From: a virus
DNA length: 49,300 bases
Strand: one strand, 5' to 3'
Virus record (IMG/VR): IMGVR_UViG_3300044713_000003
Location: 1 to 49,300 of that record
The translations under genes were made by a program, and so were the position numbers. Under the pieces are notes generated by a model, which saw only the letters and a list, made by a program, of their open reading frames with translations, did not search any database and was not told the origin of the DNA. Positions 6,313-22,370 of this stretch are shown piece by piece. Numbering within the stretch: the first letter of the stretch is position 1; each line of letters begins with the position of its first letter.

Positions 6313-6516
6313 TTAGGAAGTGAAATCCCCGGCGATCTTTTCCCCGTCTGTAACAACGGTTTCGCCTTCAGGAATCAAAGCTTCCAAATCGGAAATAGCA
6401 ACGGAAGTCAATCCACCGCTCTTGGCATCGTTGACAAGCTTCTCCACGCCGTTAACAAACGCTACAACAGCGGTTGCTTCTGCGGGAACATCGGTGATCA
6501 ATCCTTCAACATTCAT
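6313..6516 (-). CDS. Small acidic protein of unknown function
   Basis: A 67-residue protein with a strong GGAGG ribosome site in front of its ATG. It is acidic and helical (PAEATAVVAFVNGVEKLVND). Its composition resembles the hydrophobic protein encoded next to it (5838-6245), which suggests the two could be partners or paralogues, but no family is recognised. Confidence 0.6.
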   Translation of the reverse strand: MNVEGLITDVPAEATAVVAFVNGVEKLVNDAKSGGLTSVAISDLEALIPEGETVVTDGEKIAGDFTS

Positions 6517-8157: not shown

Positions 8158-8775
8158 TTACGCGATCCGAAACACTCGCGCTCCGTCTGCCGCTTCAACA
8201 AACGTTGATCCCTGATAGGTCTGACCGGCAGTAACCTGCCGCAACGTGAACTTCTTCGTTGCAACCAATTCGGGCACTTGAACACCCTTGCGATTGGCCT
8301 TCGTCTTGACAGTTCCATCAGGATTGGTAGCTTCAACGCTGAAACGCCGCGTTGCGCTGGAAACGGTTGATGCGAATGTTTCCCAGGGCTTCGGATAACC
8401 AGCGGTTGCGGCAACAAAGAACGATTGCCCAACGGCCATCTTCGAGAAGGGGTACTCTTCCGTCTTCTTTCCGCCCCGCTTTGCAGGTGCTAGCGGAATC
8501 CCATCTAACAGCGAATAAGAAACAGCAGCAACAGGTTCAACAGGGATAACAGCAGCCGGCCCCGCCGTGTGACTTTCAAGCAACTTCTGTGTTGCCCTTG
8601 CAGCGATCTTGCCATCTGCCGTCTTGATTGTCGGATTGACTTCGATATGTCCCGCTTCAACCAACGCGGCAACGTGTTCCGGGTTGACAAGTGAATAGCC
8701 TTGTTCACTCTTCGTATCAACAACGATAGTGTTCAAGAGCGCAGTGTGATCAACTGTCTTATTCTTCTTCGCCAT
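8158..8775 (-). CDS. Unknown phage protein with repeated strand motifs
   Basis: A 205-residue protein starting at ATG 8775 (GGAG upstream). The N-terminal 80 residues look helical (LVNPEHVAALVEAGHIEV). The C-terminal half has two similar strand patterns, YPFSKMAVGQSFFV and TRRFSVEAT, and ends in GARVFRIA. Such small phage proteins occur near replication or accessory genes, but I do not assign a function. It has its own promoter (8813-8841) and terminator (8029-8066), so it is a monocistronic unit. Confidence 0.7.
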   Translation of the reverse strand: MAKKNKTVDHTALLNTIVVDTKSEQGYSLVNPEHVAALVEAGHIEVNPTIKTADGKIAARATQKLLESHTAGPAAVIPVEPVAAVSYSLLDGIPLAPAKRGGKKTEEYPFSKMAVGQSFFVAATAGYPKPWETFASTVSSATRRFSVEATNPDGTVKTKANRKGVQVPELVATKKFTLRQVTAGQTYQGSTFVEAADGARVFRIA

Positions 8776-8812
8776 TTTGTTTAATCTCCATGCCTGATTA
8801 GGCCGTGAGTTC

Positions 8813-8841
8813 AATTTAAGCGTTGCCGGTTCCCTTGTCAA
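8813..8841 (-). promoter_or_regulatory. Sigma70-type promoter for the gene at 8158-8775
   Basis: On the minus strand TTGACA (8841-8836), a 17-bp spacer and TAAATT (8818-8813). The -35 abuts the end of the upstream gene. The predicted leader is about 30 bases and includes the GGAG ribosome site. Confidence 0.7.
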
Positions 8842-8842
8842 G

Positions 8843-9103
8843 CTATTTTCCATCTTTTATTAGCTGTTCAATCATTTCCTTGCGCTTTTTGCACATTGGA
8901 CAATCCTTACCATACCTACAAAGATCAACAGGCCGAATGGTGCGAATCTTGCCATGTCGCGTTAGATGCACTTCAAGTTTGGTTCCACACTCCGCCAAGA
9001 ACTTTCGTACAGTGTCAAAGGATTGTGGCGATCTATCGCAAATGTGAACGGTGATTGTAGGCATTGGAACGGCATCTTGCAAGGTGTATGTCGAAATACT
9101 CAT
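8843..9103 (-). CDS. Small Cys-rich protein of unknown function
   Basis: An 86-residue protein whose ATG overlaps the stop of the VRR-NUC gene (ATGA), so it is the last gene of a coupled set. The C-terminal half holds three Cys in CRYGKDCPMCKKRKEM, a possible zinc knuckle followed by a charged helix. No family is recognised. Confidence 0.65.
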   Translation of the reverse strand: MSISTYTLQDAVPMPTITVHICDRSPQSFDTVRKFLAECGTKLEVHLTRHGKIRTIRPVDLCRYGKDCPMCKKRKEMIEQLIKDGK

Positions 9104-13711: not shown

Positions 13712-14195
13712 TACCTACAATAGCTTTTCACCAATCCAGGCCGATCTTCTCAATCGCTCACCACACTGTTTTGATACTTAACTTCTTTGTTTTCTTTATT
13801 TATATCATATATGTAGTAGATAGAGTATAGAGATTTGATTTTTAGCTATTATAGGCATATATGCGTAAATGATTGATCGGCCAACCACTTATCTTTTCTG
13901 TATATGTGTTGTATACGTTCTGTATGTATTTGTATGTTATACGGCTTGTATATCGCCCCAAAAGATACAACCATATACAACAGGCATACAACCGGCATTC
14001 AGGAAAGATACATACCAATGGAATGAACAAAGTACAAAATACAGGCCCTTTTTACTACCATTTAAGCCAAAAAATCTACTACACTTCCAACTCCATTAGA
14101 ATCAACAGGTTAACTAAAAATAGACACTTTTGAAAATCTGGTACATATCTTACAATCAGTTGATTCTAAACTACTTAACTTAAAAAGTCTAAAAT
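13712..14195. promoter_or_regulatory. Divergent AT-rich control region, candidate origin
   Basis: About 480 bases with no convincing gene between leftward and rightward transcription. It is AT-rich, with runs such as TTATTTATATCATATATG near 13797. It contains the TGTAT/ATACA array at 13899-14012. Short open frames cross it, but their composition follows the repeats, and I do not accept them. Position and composition fit a replication origin and/or the early control region. Confidence 0.55.
13899..14012. repeat. Phased TGTAT / ATACA inverted array
   Basis: TGTAT occurs at 13899, 13910, 13921, 13925, 13931 and 13947; its complement ATACA occurs at 13965, 13975, 13986 and 14008. Most spacings are 10-11 bp or twice that, so sites lie on one face of the helix. 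The left arm carries only TGTAT and the right arm only ATACA, around a centre near 13958. This is the arrangement expected of multiple protein-binding sites (iterons or operators). Confidence 0.75.
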
Positions 14196-14230: not shown

Positions 14231-14791
14231 ATGAGCGAACCGATAACAAAAAGTGCAGCATTCAAGCTTCTAAAGTTGGATAGGATGAATCCCGCTGAAA
14301 TAGTTGTTGTTCCGGTTGAGGCTATTAATTGGTTAGGATTGCCGTTTTTTCGCGCAAGAGTATCGGCGTTGAATTCACAAATGAGAATGAACCTAAAGAC
14401 TCACCAGCGGCCCGAAGGCGGCATTGATGTTTGGTACGATCCAAGCGTTAAGAAACTAAACGTGAATCCATCGGTATTGAATTTAATTGATTTGCGCCAA
14501 AAGCATGAGGAATTGACTGCTTCCTACAAAACGAAACAGGATTCAACGGTACTGGATCAAATGTGTATTATCGACGAACAAATTAACGCATTAATTCAAA
14601 CTCTTAAACATGATCCTGCTACCCCAAGGAAGAAACGCGGCAATTCGTTGTATCAACCTTTAGCTGTAATCTTGAAGCATCTACGGTTGAAAGAAAGCGA
14701 ATGGGAATCACTGCCAGGATCGGACAAAACAAAATTGCGAATCAAAGCCGAAATTGAAATTCGAGACAAGCAAAGGATAAACCAATCATGA
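14231..14791 (+). CDS. Unknown early protein, first gene of the rightward operon
   Basis: A 186-residue protein beginning MSEPITKSAAFKLLKLDRMN. It has a beta-rich first third (AEIVVVPVEAINWLGLPF), a helical middle (IDLRQKHEELTASYKTK) and a basic C-terminus (RKKRGNSLYQPL and RIKAEIEIRDKQR). No family recognised. As the first gene after the control-region array it could be a regulator or replication initiator, which is inference from position only. GTG at 14216 would add five residues but lies upstream of the predicted +1. Confidence 0.7.
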   Translation: MSEPITKSAAFKLLKLDRMNPAEIVVVPVEAINWLGLPFFRARVSALNSQMRMNLKTHQRPEGGIDVWYDPSVKKLNVNPSVLNLIDLRQKHEELTASYKTKQDSTVLDQMCIIDEQINALIQTLKHDPATPRKKRGNSLYQPLAVILKHLRLKESEWESLPGSDKTKLRIKAEIEIRDKQRINQS

Positions 14792-15171: not shown

Positions 15172-15268
15172 CCTTCAATTCGTGCTATTGTTATTTCAGT
15201 GATTGGTTAAACGCTGATCACAATTGGTGAGCCGGACACCTAAACCGGCACGAATAGAAAGGTTCAAA

Positions 15269-16333
15269 ATGTCACATCAGATTGAAAACAACATGATTGC
15301 ATACCGCAACGAAACGCCTTGGCATGGATTGGGTTTTCAGGTTGATGAAAACGCGACGGGTGCCGATATGCTTCGCGTTGCTGGCTTGAATTGGAAGGTT
15401 CAACGCCGTGCCTTGGCAATGCGCGATTCTGAAGGCAACGGATTGCTAACTGAACAGTTGAACGGTTTCAAGGCCATTGTTCGCAGCGATACGAATATGG
15501 TGTTTGGAATTCCTACAAAGCGGTACGAAGTGGTTCAGAACGAACAAATTGTTGATCTGTTCCGCGAATACTGCGAAGCAGGACATGCCAAGATGGAAAC
15601 GGTTGGAGCGTTGCGGAATGGTGCCGTTGTGTGGGCATTGGCAAAGTTGAACGGTGGAACAGCTTGCACTCTGAAGGGCAATGACAAGATGAACGGTTAC
15701 ATCCTGTTTAGCACTTCGCATGATGGAAGCCTTAGCACAGTTGGGAAAGCTACTTCGGTTAGAGTTGTCTGCCGCAATACAATGTCCGCCGCTCTTAAAG
15801 GTGGAGTTGATTTCAAGGTGAAACATTCAACGAAGTGGACCGCTGAAAAGGCCAACGAAGCTAAGAAAGCATTGGGAATGGCAGCGGAACAGATTCAAGA
15901 ATTCCATGCTGCCGCCGAACGTTTGAGCAACATTCGCATTGACCGGCAAAATCAGATTGAATATATATCCAGGTTGGCGAACGGCAAATGCTTGTTAGCT
16001 GAAACCGAACAAGCTGTTGGAAAAAGAATTCTTAATGAAATCATGCTTAACGCTGAAGTTTCGAGAATTCAAGCAATGAAAAATCCAACAGAAGATTGTC
16101 TCAACCGTGTTGGTAAAGCGATCCTTGAAGCAATTGTCGATTCCCCAGGTTCACAGATGGAATCGGCAAAAAACACCCTTTGGGGGGCAGTCAATGGTGT
16201 TTCTTATTACACGGATCACATTGCTGGTAGAACCCAGGATTCAAGACTCAACAACGCATGGTTTGGGCAGAACGAAGAATTAAAGCGTTCTGCAATGACT
16301 GTTGCTCTTGAAATGGCTGGAGCAAGGGTATAG
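15269..16333 (+). CDS. DUF932 phage/plasmid-like protein
   Basis: A 354-residue member of the DUF932 / TIGR03299 group: the N-terminal TPWHGLGFQVDENATGADML and the central STSHDGSLSTVGKATSVRVV plus CRNTMSAAL segments are characteristic. These proteins are widespread in phages and plasmids, often near replication genes; the biochemical function is unknown. The start at 15269 is chosen for AAAGG upstream. A strong terminator follows at 16368-16399. Confidence 0.85.
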   Translation: MSHQIENNMIAYRNETPWHGLGFQVDENATGADMLRVAGLNWKVQRRALAMRDSEGNGLLTEQLNGFKAIVRSDTNMVFGIPTKRYEVVQNEQIVDLFREYCEAGHAKMETVGALRNGAVVWALAKLNGGTACTLKGNDKMNGYILFSTSHDGSLSTVGKATSVRVVCRNTMSAALKGGVDFKVKHSTKWTAEKANEAKKALGMAAEQIQEFHAAAERLSNIRIDRQNQIEYISRLANGKCLLAETEQAVGKRILNEIMLNAEVSRIQAMKNPTEDCLNRVGKAILEAIVDSPGSQMESAKNTLWGAVNGVSYYTDHIAGRTQDSRLNNAWFGQNEELKRSAMTVALEMAGARV

Positions 16334-16506: not shown

Positions 16507-16547
16507 ACCGCCAGTTGCTTGAATACGACTGGCGGTATTTTTTATTT
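16507..16547 (+). terminator. Second plus-strand terminator
   Basis: ACCGCCAGT (16507-16515) and ACTGGCGGT (16528-16536), 12-base loop, then ATTTTTTATTT. Its T run reaches the end of the convergent methyltransferase gene. Two plus-strand terminators in series with about 110 bases between them are noteworthy. Confidence 0.82.
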
Positions 16548-17054
16548 AACGATCTTTCTTTCAACAGTGACGATTGTATCGTTATGCGCGCCCCCATGTG
16601 GAACCAACAACAATTCGATCATTTCGTATCCTCTTGTTAACCCAAAACCCATAGAATTCCATCCAAAACAAATAGCTATACCGTTAGGTTTAAGCATCGC
16701 GTCCAATCCGTCTTTTACAGTTTTATACATCGAAGCAGATTGGGTTTCTTTCATACCAACTTTAATACCTACAGATTGATAAACTTCGCTTATTTGGCGT
16801 GGAGAATAAGGCGGATCAAACAAAACAACATCTGCAATCATAGGAGCATTTTCTAAAAATTTTTCGGCTAATAAATGATATTGGGCTGTTGTATTTGGGT
16901 TAAGGTCGTTAGTAATTGTCGCCCGTTTAGAATTTCTTGCGAAAGGATCAACAATTACTTCTTTATTCTTCAAATATGTATCTAATAATGAAGCAATAGG
17001 AGCAATTGAAAAAGTATCTGCGTTAGGCATTGCCCATTTTCTAGTTATTCTCAT
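16542..17054 (-). CDS. Adenine-specific DNA methyltransferase (orphan, phage type)
   Basis: A 170-residue SAM-dependent methylase. It opens with MRITRKWAMPNADTFSIAPI, continues with IVDPFARNS, the catalytic DPPY motif in LFDPPYSPRQISE, and AICFGWNSMGFG and LLVPHGGAHNDTIVTVE near the end. This arrangement matches a common family of small phage methylases without a partner nuclease, probably used to protect phage DNA. Its ATG overlaps the stop of the primase gene (ATGA). Confidence 0.85.
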   Translation of the reverse strand: MRITRKWAMPNADTFSIAPIASLLDTYLKNKEVIVDPFARNSKRATITNDLNPNTTAQYHLLAEKFLENAPMIADVVLFDPPYSPRQISEVYQSVGIKVGMKETQSASMYKTVKDGLDAMLKPNGIAICFGWNSMGFGLTRGYEMIELLLVPHGGAHNDTIVTVERKIVK

Positions 17055-19378
17055 TTCACCACCAAACTTTCAATATCCCGAATGTAGTACGCAATCCCGC
17101 GTCTTGGAGAATCCTTAATTTTGCCCATATCTATCTTTTCCAGGATACCGTTATCTACAAACTCTTGAATGATATTCTTGAATGCTAGGAGCGGGTTGCG
17201 ATCTTTTCTGAATCCTGTATGCTTAGTAACATTCAATTGAATATAACGGTGAGTCACAATCTTAACATCGTACATTGGTTTGTTGATTCCAAATGAAGTA
17301 GAGTAAGCCTCTTTATATCCACTCTTCCAATATGCCTTCAGGCAACGCATTACCAACAATCTTTGCTCAGTTGTGTAATTGATTTCTCCAACTCGCCCCG
17401 CTTCAAATCTTGCAGCAACAGCGGCTATACCATGCACGATAAATGCTCTTGCCCATCTAACGCATTCAACAGTCATAACCGGATTATCTGGATTGATTCC
17501 AACTGCTACCAATGCAGCAAGACGCAACAAGCGAAGATGTGCTCTTGAATACAACTTACCTTCTGCCGAGTCACGATCTATAAATGCCATTTCGTAACAC
17601 TCTTGCATAAACTTCATGTGTTCGGCATTCGCATCGGGTGTTTCTTGAACATCAACCTTACCGTTGATTTGACCTAACTGCATGGCGCGTTTTGCTAATC
17701 CTACTAACTTATCCACCAGAATAGGACTAGGGGCAATCGAACCGTGATTTTTGTTAAATTCAGTTCTGGCCCCGGTAGCTTCAACAACCATAAACCTTGA
17801 CACTAATCCTTCTTCAACATTTTCTTCGTCTAATGCTTTGTAGAATGTATCTGGAGTTGCGTCACCATAAATAGTAAACGCTGGTGCCGGAATTGGGTGA
17901 ACGTCTTTTGTCTTGTCACTATAGATCGATCCTCTAACAACTTGACCGTGACCGGATTTTGTATATAGATCAAGTAACAATGCTCTTAACTGCGTTTCAT
18001 TCGCCTTCGCATACTTCGCTGTTAACTTCTGCATCCAAAACCCAACTTCACCTTTGTAGGAAATGAAGCAAGGGGAAACGGTTGATAGGTGTTTAACTAA
18101 TGCTTGCGGCGAAGCTATTTCAGCCGGTCCTATGAATTGTTCAAATGGCGGAAACTTATCAATTATATATCTCGACAACTGTTCCATTCCACTAGCGGCC
18201 CCTTCTTTTCCCCCGGCAGTTGGTGCAAGAATAGCTATGTAATGATTTAAGCCAGTTTTGGATATGTTATAAGCTTTACCTACAATTCCAGCTAAGTAAC
18301 CAATAGCAGCGGAAATGGCAATTTCCTTAACTGGCCTAACTGCATTTTGATAAATGAATTTCGCAACTTCCCCGACCATTCCAGGCGGCAACTCATCAAA
18401 GCTAAATTCTGTTAGCTCTTGCTTGATGAACTCCGGTAACTGTTCCGTAAGTTGGTGTTTCACGGAATGAGACTGCATGATAGGAACGCTGAGAGCTAAT
18501 TTATTAGCTTCATTCACTTTGTCTTTAACTATCGCTTCCAACTCTGCAAAGTAAATTGGCGGATTCTTCTGATCAAATGCTTTAGTTATCAATCCATAAT
18601 TTTCATGGAATAGATAGTCTCTCTTACCTTTGCGCTTGCGTTTTGGTGAGTTCAAAAACAATGGTGAGTTATAAAAGATTCGAGCAACTTGTTTTTTGCT
18701 ATCCGTATAGAAAGCAACGATATTGAGAAATGCTAAATCAGCTTCGGATTGCGAAGGATAGTTATGTTCCTGCCACTTTCCAAGATACAACGCTTGAAAC
18801 AATTCCCCGTTGGATGCAAATGCCGCTTGCTTTATAACTGCTTCGTCAGTTTGCATTTCAACGGGTTCAATTGATTTATGGTGCCCGTTCTGCCGTCGTT
18901 CCAGGGATTGCCATAATTCAACTAATAGTTCTTGCCGTTCGTTTATAGGTTCGTCGTTTATACTGTTGCCGGTTATGGTCAAAAATCTTGAATGTGGATA
19001 TATTTCATAAAACAACTTGGATTCTTTTCTGCCAGTTTCAACTTGCCCCTTCAACCAAATATGAACGCCGCCCGAAGGTGATAGCTCAGAATAGCTATTG
19101 AAGGTTTCATAAATTTGCTTGTGAAGATTTACTACTTGGGGATCAAATGTTTTGTACGTATCTAAATCAATAACTGTAAATGGATCATTTTGAGTTAATA
19201 CAAAACCCAGGGTAAGAAATCTATTGCACATGATACAAGCATTGGCAACTTCGTAAGAACTCCACGTTGACGGATCATTAACCGCTGCTCTTTGGCCGGT
19301 TTTCGGATCAAGCGGTATCTTATCGGCAACGTAACAAACAACCCATTGCGGATAGGCCGCAAGTTCATCAATGAACAT
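17051..19378 (-). CDS. Primase-polymerase fused to DUF3987-like helicase
   Basis: A 775-residue replication protein. The N-terminal third is an archaeo-eukaryotic-type primase (PrimPol): VIDLDTY near residue 70 gives the metal-binding D-x-D, and SPSGGVHIWLKG near 105 the second motif. The central and C-terminal part contains a P-loop APTAGGKE near residue 380 and a domain resembling DUF3987 helicase-like ATPases. It likely primes and unwinds DNA at the phage fork. It is encoded against the direction of the other replication genes, coupled to a methylase downstream and a small DNA-binding protein upstream. Confidence 0.85.
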   Translation of the reverse strand: MFIDELAAYPQWVVCYVADKIPLDPKTGQRAAVNDPSTWSSYEVANACIMCNRFLTLGFVLTQNDPFTVIDLDTYKTFDPQVVNLHKQIYETFNSYSELSPSGGVHIWLKGQVETGRKESKLFYEIYPHSRFLTITGNSINDEPINERQELLVELWQSLERRQNGHHKSIEPVEMQTDEAVIKQAAFASNGELFQALYLGKWQEHNYPSQSEADLAFLNIVAFYTDSKKQVARIFYNSPLFLNSPKRKRKGKRDYLFHENYGLITKAFDQKNPPIYFAELEAIVKDKVNEANKLALSVPIMQSHSVKHQLTEQLPEFIKQELTEFSFDELPPGMVGEVAKFIYQNAVRPVKEIAISAAIGYLAGIVGKAYNISKTGLNHYIAILAPTAGGKEGAASGMEQLSRYIIDKFPPFEQFIGPAEIASPQALVKHLSTVSPCFISYKGEVGFWMQKLTAKYAKANETQLRALLLDLYTKSGHGQVVRGSIYSDKTKDVHPIPAPAFTIYGDATPDTFYKALDEENVEEGLVSRFMVVEATGARTEFNKNHGSIAPSPILVDKLVGLAKRAMQLGQINGKVDVQETPDANAEHMKFMQECYEMAFIDRDSAEGKLYSRAHLRLLRLAALVAVGINPDNPVMTVECVRWARAFIVHGIAAVAARFEAGRVGEINYTTEQRLLVMRCLKAYWKSGYKEAYSTSFGINKPMYDVKIVTHRYIQLNVTKHTGFRKDRNPLLAFKNIIQEFVDNGILEKIDMGKIKDSPRRGIAYYIRDIESLVVK

Positions 19379-19387
19379 TTGCGGTTC

Positions 19388-19570
19388 CTATTGTTGATCT
19401 TGGGAAACGTCTGTTGTTGGAATTGAACCAGTACGAATTAAAAATCTGATTGTTGAAGCCTTAGAAACAAAATTCACTTTTAGATGATCACGAAGTTTTC
19501 GTTGAAGAGTATCTAATTGCGAATTTTCATCGGGCGGAAGGTCTACGCGGATCGATGCAGGTTTGCTCAT
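19388..19570 (-). CDS. Small probable ribbon-helix-helix DNA-binding protein
   Basis: A 60-residue protein: a short strand ASIRVDLPPDEN, then LDTLQRKLRDHLKVN and a second helix ASTIRFLIRTGSI, the pattern of Arc/CopG-type repressors. It has an AAGG ribosome site. It lies just upstream of the primase gene and next to the divergent promoter at 19632, so autoregulation or control of the replication operon is plausible. Fold assignment is by pattern only. Confidence 0.6.
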   Translation of the reverse strand: MSKPASIRVDLPPDENSQLDTLQRKLRDHLKVNFVSKASTIRFLIRTGSIPTTDVSQDQQ

Positions 19571-21218: not shown

Positions 21219-22370
21219 ATGGAATTGGATAACAACATACCGATTATTGGCCCCGAAACGCCGCCGCATTTGAAAGAAAAGAATCGTGCTTATTATGAGG
21301 CAAATAGCGAAAAACTGAAACATAATCAAGTCCAATATCGCATCGATAATCATGAATCTGTAAATGAAAAACAACAACAATTTCGTAAGCGAAATCCAAA
21401 CTACGCAAGCAATCAGAATAAACAGTCGCGCAAAAGAAATCGTCAACGTTACCGCGAATTGCATTTGAAAAGAATGTTTGGGTTGACTCTTGAAAGATTT
21501 GATGAAATTTTTGCATCGCAAGGATACGGTTGCGCGATATGCGGAGCTAAAGAACCAGGAGGCAAAAGAACATGGTGTGTTGATCACTGTCATAAAACAA
21601 AGAAAGTAAGAGGAATTCTTTGTTTAACCTGCAACGTAGCGTTAGGTGCGTTTCGAGATAATCCAATTTCGTTATGTGCTGCGCTCTATTACTTGAATCT
21701 TCATGGAGAGAATGAAATGGAACTTCGATTTAACGCATACGAACACGATCCAACACAAGGGGGTTCAATCTGTTTTCCTCTTGGGGATTACAAACTCGAA
21801 ATAACAGCGGTTGAACCCAAACCAGTAAAAGACAATCCCGCCGCTGGTTACCTTGAAATTTCACTAACTGTTCTTGAAGGCGATTTGCGGGGAATGGTTC
21901 AGAAGGATCGTTTGAACATTTTCAACCCAAACGAAACGGCAAAACGAATTGCCTATCAAAATTTGGCCGCTTACGCTTTTGCTATTGAACGGCCATATCT
22001 GCAAATGACTGAGCAAATGGTTGGGGGAAGATTGATTGCAACTATCGGCCCCCAAACGGAACGTCCTGAATATTCTGAAGTGAAGGTTATCAAGTGCAAA
22101 GATGGATCATTGCCAACCAACACTCAGAAACAACAGGGACCATCAACCCAGGCGCAACCCCCGGCCCCGCAAATGCCGCCCCCTGCCGCCGCTGGTGCCC
22201 CGCCTTGGGGTTCGCCCCCGGCAACGCAACAGGCCCCGCCGGCGGCCCCGCCTTGGGGTGGTAACGCACCGGCCCCCGCTGCCCCTGCTCCGGCCCAAAC
22301 CGCTCCACCTTGGGGAAGTGCCCCGGTAACCGCTGCCGGTCCTGCCGCTGCCCCACCTTGGGCACGATAG
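21219..22370 (+). CDS. Fusion: HNH endonuclease VII-like domain + DUF669-type SSB
   Basis: One frame of 383 residues holds two proteins. Residues 1-166 are a recombination endonuclease VII-type HNH nuclease: basic N-terminal helices, CAICGAKEPGGKRTWCVDHC and RGILCLTCN give the zinc and His-metal motif. Residue 167 is a Met (21717) opening a DUF669-like single-strand binding protein (ELRFNAYEHDPTQGGS, VQKDRLNIFNPNETAKRIAY), with GGAGAG just upstream as its own ribosome site. The tail is Pro/Ala rich with four PPW motifs and ends PPWAR. The SSB may be made both fused and alone. The nuclease looks like an invading homing gene that lost its stop codon. Confidence 0.85.
   Translation: MELDNNIPIIGPETPPHLKEKNRAYYEANSEKLKHNQVQYRIDNHESVNEKQQQFRKRNPNYASNQNKQSRKRNRQRYRELHLKRMFGLTLERFDEIFASQGYGCAICGAKEPGGKRTWCVDHCHKTKKVRGILCLTCNVALGAFRDNPISLCAALYYLNLHGENEMELRFNAYEHDPTQGGSICFPLGDYKLEITAVEPKPVKDNPAAGYLEISLTVLEGDLRGMVQKDRLNIFNPNETAKRIAYQNLAAYAFAIERPYLQMTEQMVGGRLIATIGPQTERPEYSEVKVIKCKDGSLPTNTQKQQGPSTQAQPPAPQMPPPAAAGAPPWGSPPATQQAPPAAPPWGGNAPAPAAPAPAQTAPPWGSAPVTAAGPAAAPPWAR

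Follow-up and report, generated by a model that had tools for sequence, protein, structure and literature searches.

A converging pentamer array beside the weakest duplex of a phage genome as a candidate initiator-binding site

Introduction

Replication origins of iteron plasmids such as RK2, R6K and P1 combine direct repeats of ~17-22 bp, an AT-rich melting element and an adjacent Rep gene, sometimes with an IHF site in between, and many plasmid Rep proteins autoregulate their own promoter through the origin sites. In the SV40 and polyoma origin, pentanucleotides of opposite orientation lie beside AT-rich DNA and are read by the replication protein. The phage origin ori-lambda consists of repeated O-protein sites beside AT-rich DNA, which the gene for the initiator adjoins or encloses (PMC7466680). 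For phages that carry the primase module considered here, the accessible parts of two papers list the replication genes and give no origin (PMC4559383; PMC4482731), and no published origin was found in the non-subscription literature searched.

The locus described here lies in the IMG/VR virus record IMGVR_UViG_3300044713_000003, all 49,300 nucleotides of which were analyzed (hereafter the window); the window is the whole virus record and has no terminal repeats. Between positions 13899 and 14043, six TGTAT sites are followed by five ATACA sites. Like iteron plasmid origins, the locus combines short phased repeats, an AT-rich melting element and an adjacent gene for a candidate initiator, here a protein of 186 residues. 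Copies of one short site are clustered beyond chance, and the melting element adjoins them, as an iteron-type origin requires. Unlike iteron plasmids, however, the locus has no ~17-22 bp direct repeats; the array is made of inverted pentamers in 10-11 bp steps, and the candidate initiator matches no Rep family. The array works like an iteron origin and is not a classical member of that group. Opposed pentamers beside AT-rich DNA also recall SV40 and polyoma, as an analogy only, given that the proteins and the virus class are unrelated. With ori-lambda the locus shares repeated sites next to AT-rich DNA and an adjacent candidate initiator gene (PMC7466680), whereas the lambda iterons are longer, fewer, direct and inside gene O, and the pentamers here lie outside the gene and converge in two rows. 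For replication the phage carries primase/helicase and DNA polymerase genes of its own, apparently in place of a lambda-type P helicase loader, and Pfam, PHROG and NCBIfam comparisons gave no homology between the 186-residue protein and the lambda O family.

Results and Discussion

Genome setting of the locus

The structural genes of the window are of the contractile-tail type (tail sheath, baseplate), with terminase and portal on the leftward arm, and the replication module (primase/helicase, Sak4, clamp and DNA polymerase) resembles that of Septimatrevirus, Lokivirus and related siphoviruses. A replication module that is elsewhere typical of Septimatrevirus/Lokivirus siphoviruses here accompanies myovirus structural genes. 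The primase/helicase anchors the homologous module in relatives, and primase identity to these siphoviruses is mostly 31-38%. In addition, four IMG/VR contigs carry an orthologue of the 186-residue protein (~30% identity) together with a matching control region, in which they represent two alleles (L002 = L007 and L003 = L006).

The original prediction placed the array exactly between leftward accessory and rightward replication genes. The genes on its left are indeed read leftward, and those for the 186-residue and DUF932 proteins rightward, but the primase gene is read leftward. The DUF932 protein (15224-16333) and a DNA methyltransferase (16542-17054) lie between array and primase, and neither has a match in the initial set of eight primase-anchored contigs from relatives. 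At 21219-22370 of the window, an SSB-like protein is preceded, in an in-frame fusion, by an HNH-endonuclease-like domain (about residues 60-159). Copies ~36% identical occur elsewhere in relatives, near the helicase and before the primase (L002 1959-2378 and 8272-8691), a scatter that a roaming homing endonuclease would be expected to leave.

Table 1. Features of the array locus and of the genes discussed with it (window coordinates)
Feature	Position	Strand	Description and basis
Predicted DNA-unwinding (melting) element	13794..13853	.	Least stable 60 bp of the 49.3-kb record; nearest-neighbour stability scan
CATATATGTAGTA block	13806..13818	+	Identical in L002, L007, L003 and L006; sequence, alignment, pattern scan
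TATAGAGATTTGATTTTTAGCTATTATA	13826..13853	+	Local alignment to the Kakheti25 and LPPA15 gaps
Conserved box GTAAATGATTGAT	13865..13877	+	Consensus STAAGTNNTTGAT; complement resembles an IHF site
Array, left half	13899..13951	+	TGTAT starts at 13899, 13910, 13921, 13925, 13931, 13947
Array, right half	13965..14043	-	ATACA at 13965, 13975, 13986, 14008, 14039; ATTCA at 13997; 10.5-bp phased
186-residue protein, proposed initiator	14231..14791	+	Predicted winged-helix N-terminal domain, long helical C-terminal part; AlphaFold
Replicative primase/helicase, NrS-1-type HBD domain	17051..19378	-	PHROG 3022 (E 5.5e-176), Pfam PF22763
Small RHH-like protein	19388..19570	-	Adjoins primase; alignment; binder candidate, not favoured

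The repeat array

The TGTAT/ATACA array is real and beyond chance. Among all 5- to 8-mers it is the top local cluster of the 49.3-kb record (log10 P ~-11, against -4.7 for the runner-up short-repeat cluster), none of 5000 local dinucleotide shuffles reached at least 11 sites, and the sites are perfectly sorted by orientation, forward and then reverse (chance ~0.004). All six TGTAT and four ATACA sites originally reported are present, as is the degenerate ATTCA; a fifth ATACA at 14039 had been overlooked, and the proposed mirror centre near 13958 agrees with the computed one. The claim of helical phasing holds for the right half (Rayleigh R 0.95 at 10.5 bp, n = 5) and only partially for the left, where the spacings are 11, 11, 4, 6 and 16 (R ~0.34-0.45) and four of the six sites are phased (13899, 13910, 13921 and 13931). 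An Rfam search of the array gave no match, and an RNA element was rejected on that ground. No convincing DnaA boxes were seen near the array.

Melting element and conserved box

The weakest 100-bp stretch of the record (13763-13862) includes the weakest 60 bp, and the module runs from this melting element through the box and the array to the gene of the 186-residue protein (Table 1). The CATATATGTAGTA block is followed by a 44-nt spacer and GCGTAARTGATTGAT, an arrangement whose distances are identical between the window and the two relative alleles; the ungapped identity there, 37/72, is concentrated at both ends. The 28-bp block TATAGAGATTTGATTTTTAGCTATTATA aligns locally with the Kakheti25 and LPPA15 gaps at scores of 39 and 32, which 0 of 100 shuffles reached. 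The box is the sole match of at least 12/13 to STAAGTNNTTGAT in the 49.3 kb, and the IHF consensus WATCARNNNNTTR fits exactly in L007 and L003 and with one mismatch in the window box.

In GenBank relatives, the locus compared was the noncoding gap downstream of the homologous primase. A melting element was found in the matching gap near this primase in all 14 GenBank relatives with a gap compared. The weakest 60 bp and the weakest 100 bp of the record lie at the locus in each of the six whole records scored (the window, Kakheti25, LPPA15, Halfdan, AH03 and Pavpe01). When the minimum was scored on shorter fetched stretches, not whole records, it also lay at the locus in L002, L003, L006 and L007 and at the gap in nine GenBank relatives (DLP2, KL1, Guyu, Kmi2C, BREN6, FtMidnight, BAPIC4, Lucius and nyashin). 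Pfeifenkraut has a strong stability minimum at 6442-6501. For SeppeHuegi and RcHartney, no comparable gap was identified and the pattern was not obvious.

Of 17 gaps, 16 match the STAAGTNNTTGAT consensus at no fewer than 11 of 13 positions and 12 at no fewer than 12 of 13. These counts are not independent, since the consensus was written after viewing five or six gaps and several of the gaps scored later come from phages of Kakheti25's own genus. The box lies 0-21 bp from the melting element in 14 of the 17, and a 12/13 match arises in 0-8% of shuffled gaps, depending on the gap. In KL1 (L026 6498-6510 and 6662-6674) and LPPA15 (L024 36191-36203 and 36351-36363), STAAGTNNTTGAT is present in two inverted copies, ~150 bp from each other, that flank the melting element.

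The locus resembles the gap downstream of primase in Septimatrevirus, Kilunavirus, Lokivirus and related phages (Kakheti25, KL1, Halfdan, AH03 and LPPA15) in having the weakest duplex and an abutting box. Several of these gaps also carry short repeats (GTATAA/TATAAGG type, as in Kakheti25, LPPA15 and Halfdan, and likewise in Pavpe01), whose letters differ from those of the window, and no direct DNA-level relatives were found among GenBank phages. Taken strictly, the original prediction would be refuted by a lack of conserved spacing in related phages, and this is what is seen: position and layout are kept, letters and spacing are not. That standard is too strict for an initiator co-diversifying with its sites. 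A conserved position with changing letters is as expected if an initiator and its iterons change together.

The gene adjacent to the gap in Septimatrevirus, Kilunavirus and AH03 belongs to phrog_10287 (DUF7303-like) and has no detectable homology to the 186-residue protein; a relationship suspected from a common helix-strand-strand look gained no support from profile comparison. Members of phrog_10287 beside the gap (L022 37186-37461, L024 35778-36074, L021 206-511) are weakly related to DUF7303/phrog_7597. The phrog_7597 protein of the window itself (8158-8853) lies in the left arm, away from the array.

Co-divergence of the array and the 186-residue protein

The 186-residue protein had no match in Pfam, PHROG or NCBIfam, no relative of it was detected outside the small group, and a fold search with its model gave no significant match in the PDB or a viral library. 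Searches of viral and genome contigs returned no orthologues beyond the same four contigs and two alleles; the terminase and VRR-NUC genes led to no further control regions, and the genome contigs to no prophage or host.

Downstream of GCGTAARTGATTGAT the sequences split, with TGTAT/ATACA in the window and TATCCG-type sites in L007, four forward and then two reverse (6-mer P 0.07, borderline). Simple counting gave no statistically clear repeat in the array region of L003. On either side of the array, and in most of the gene of the 186-residue protein, L007 and L003 hardly differ; they diverge strongly in the array, at the start of that gene and in the short leader just upstream of it. Residues 18-48 of the protein are 42% identical between the two, against ~92% in the remainder (88% before and 91-94% after this stretch). 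Both AlphaFold models, of modest quality (mean pLDDT 69 and 57), have the winged-helix order of helix, strand, helix, helix and two strands, on which residues 18-48 would reach as far as the presumed recognition helix and extend into it. This co-divergence, which concerns one allele pair with other mosaic islands between its members, is the best evidence for the 186-residue protein as reader of the array and the reason for preferring it as binder: its predicted reading head varies along with the sites. In the middle of their array regions, L007 (13449-13464) and L003 (11318-11335, minus strand) have a short palindrome, GTAAAGTTTGCTTTAC and TGTCAAGTTTACTTGACA respectively, which differs between them while its symmetry is preserved by paired changes.

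Two binders had originally been put forward, and the adjacent 186-residue protein is the one that gained ground. The other, the RHH-like protein at 19388, has become less likely and is not favoured as main binder: its beta-strand is nearly the same in the window and L002 (ASIRVDL/ASLRLDL), though the array letters differ. Nor is the RHH gene the same in L002 and L003.

GC skew

GC skew was measured at third codon positions and corrected for gene direction. The best origin position in Kakheti25 is 36.5-36.75 kb, compared to a gap at 36.84-37.19, and in LPPA15 it is 35.5-37.75 kb, compared to a gap at 36.07-36.45, with permutation P ≤0.01 for a replication effect in both; in AH03 the near-best positions include the gap. 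The skew of Halfdan is not significant (P 0.08; best position 26 kb, gap at 30.4), and the strand-corrected skew of Pavpe01 gives no support for the locus. In the window the corrected skew is best at 31.25 kb, and the R2 gain at the array is 0.001, so the locus is not indicated; this is the main evidence that does not fit an origin at the array. An uncorrected skew switch at 14 kb was discarded as confounded by gene direction.

Interpretation of the array

Judged from sequence, the array is probably the initiator-binding part of the phage replication origin, with the 186-residue protein as its reader. The array, melting element, box, conserved position and co-divergence are read directly from the DNA, and from them we infer that initiator binding, melting, primase loading and the start of replication would occur here. 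The protein would bind the helically phased TGTAT sites through its N-terminal winged helix and assemble along the DNA as two converging rows, and strain from the assembled protein would open the adjacent AT-rich element. The GTAAATGATTGAT box may bind IHF or a conserved part of the replisome and thereby bend or orient the complex, and the phage primase/helicase would be loaded onto the opened strand.

The original prediction had offered a large operator beside an iteron origin. As an operator, the array would be bound cooperatively by the 186-residue protein, acting as a repressor or early/late switch that controls divergent transcription with immunity-group-like specificity. The array does lie between divergently read genes with the gene of its putative binder adjacent, reading head and sites co-diverge, and L003, alone, has an extra promoter-like site (TTGACA-17-TACAAT) inside the array region. 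The operator is nonetheless weakened because the promoter-like sites common to L007 and L003, one upstream of the gene of the 186-residue protein (TTGACA-18-TATAGT) and one leftward with an extended -10 (TTGACA-17-TATTCT), lie outside the array and flank it, whereas operator sites would overlap the promoters they control. The promoter-like sites of the window are weak. A repressor would also leave the weakest duplex and the box beside the array unexplained across siphovirus and myovirus relatives, and neither an integrase nor an HTH_3 repressor was found in the window (a record that may be incomplete). We therefore regard an operator as unlikely, while the origin half of the prediction has been strengthened by the weakest duplex, the box, the clade-wide position and the skew in three relatives.

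A combined reading, in which the initiator of an origin would also use the array to autoregulate its promoter, would suit an initiator-type gene directly downstream of the sites and has a general precedent in iteron plasmids; it is decidedly unlikely, however, as the sites do not overlap the conserved rightward promoter of L007 and L003. That a repeat-reading protein binds the array as a partition (parS-like) or packaging-related site is very improbable: an inverted array in noncoding DNA would be in keeping with such a site, but no ParA-type ATPase was found in the window, the terminase genes are 8 kb distant, and the melting element would be left unexplained. Chance or low-complexity AT-rich sequence, to which the 33% GC of the array region might point, is scarcely credible for the best cluster of the genome, with sorted orientation and a site count that no local shuffle reached.

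Significance

If the array is the initiator-binding part of an origin, each phage lineage would have its own origin specificity, since the array and the reading head vary jointly and all else is constant. We suggest, tentatively, that an undescribed class of origin may extend across the broad range of phages that carry this primase module, with a conserved melting element and box, lineage-specific arrays and exchangeable small DNA-binding readers. If this is true, origin specificity in the class would evolve by joint change of array and reading head within fixed surroundings. L007 and L003 represent a natural experiment of this kind, in which a protein's reading head has changed along with its DNA sites while the background remained constant, and the case should be useful for the study of how initiator specificity evolves. 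The primase module occurs in hundreds of sequenced phages of Pseudomonas, Stenotrophomonas, E. coli, Burkholderia and other hosts, for which the array locus provides a testable origin location and a candidate initiator.
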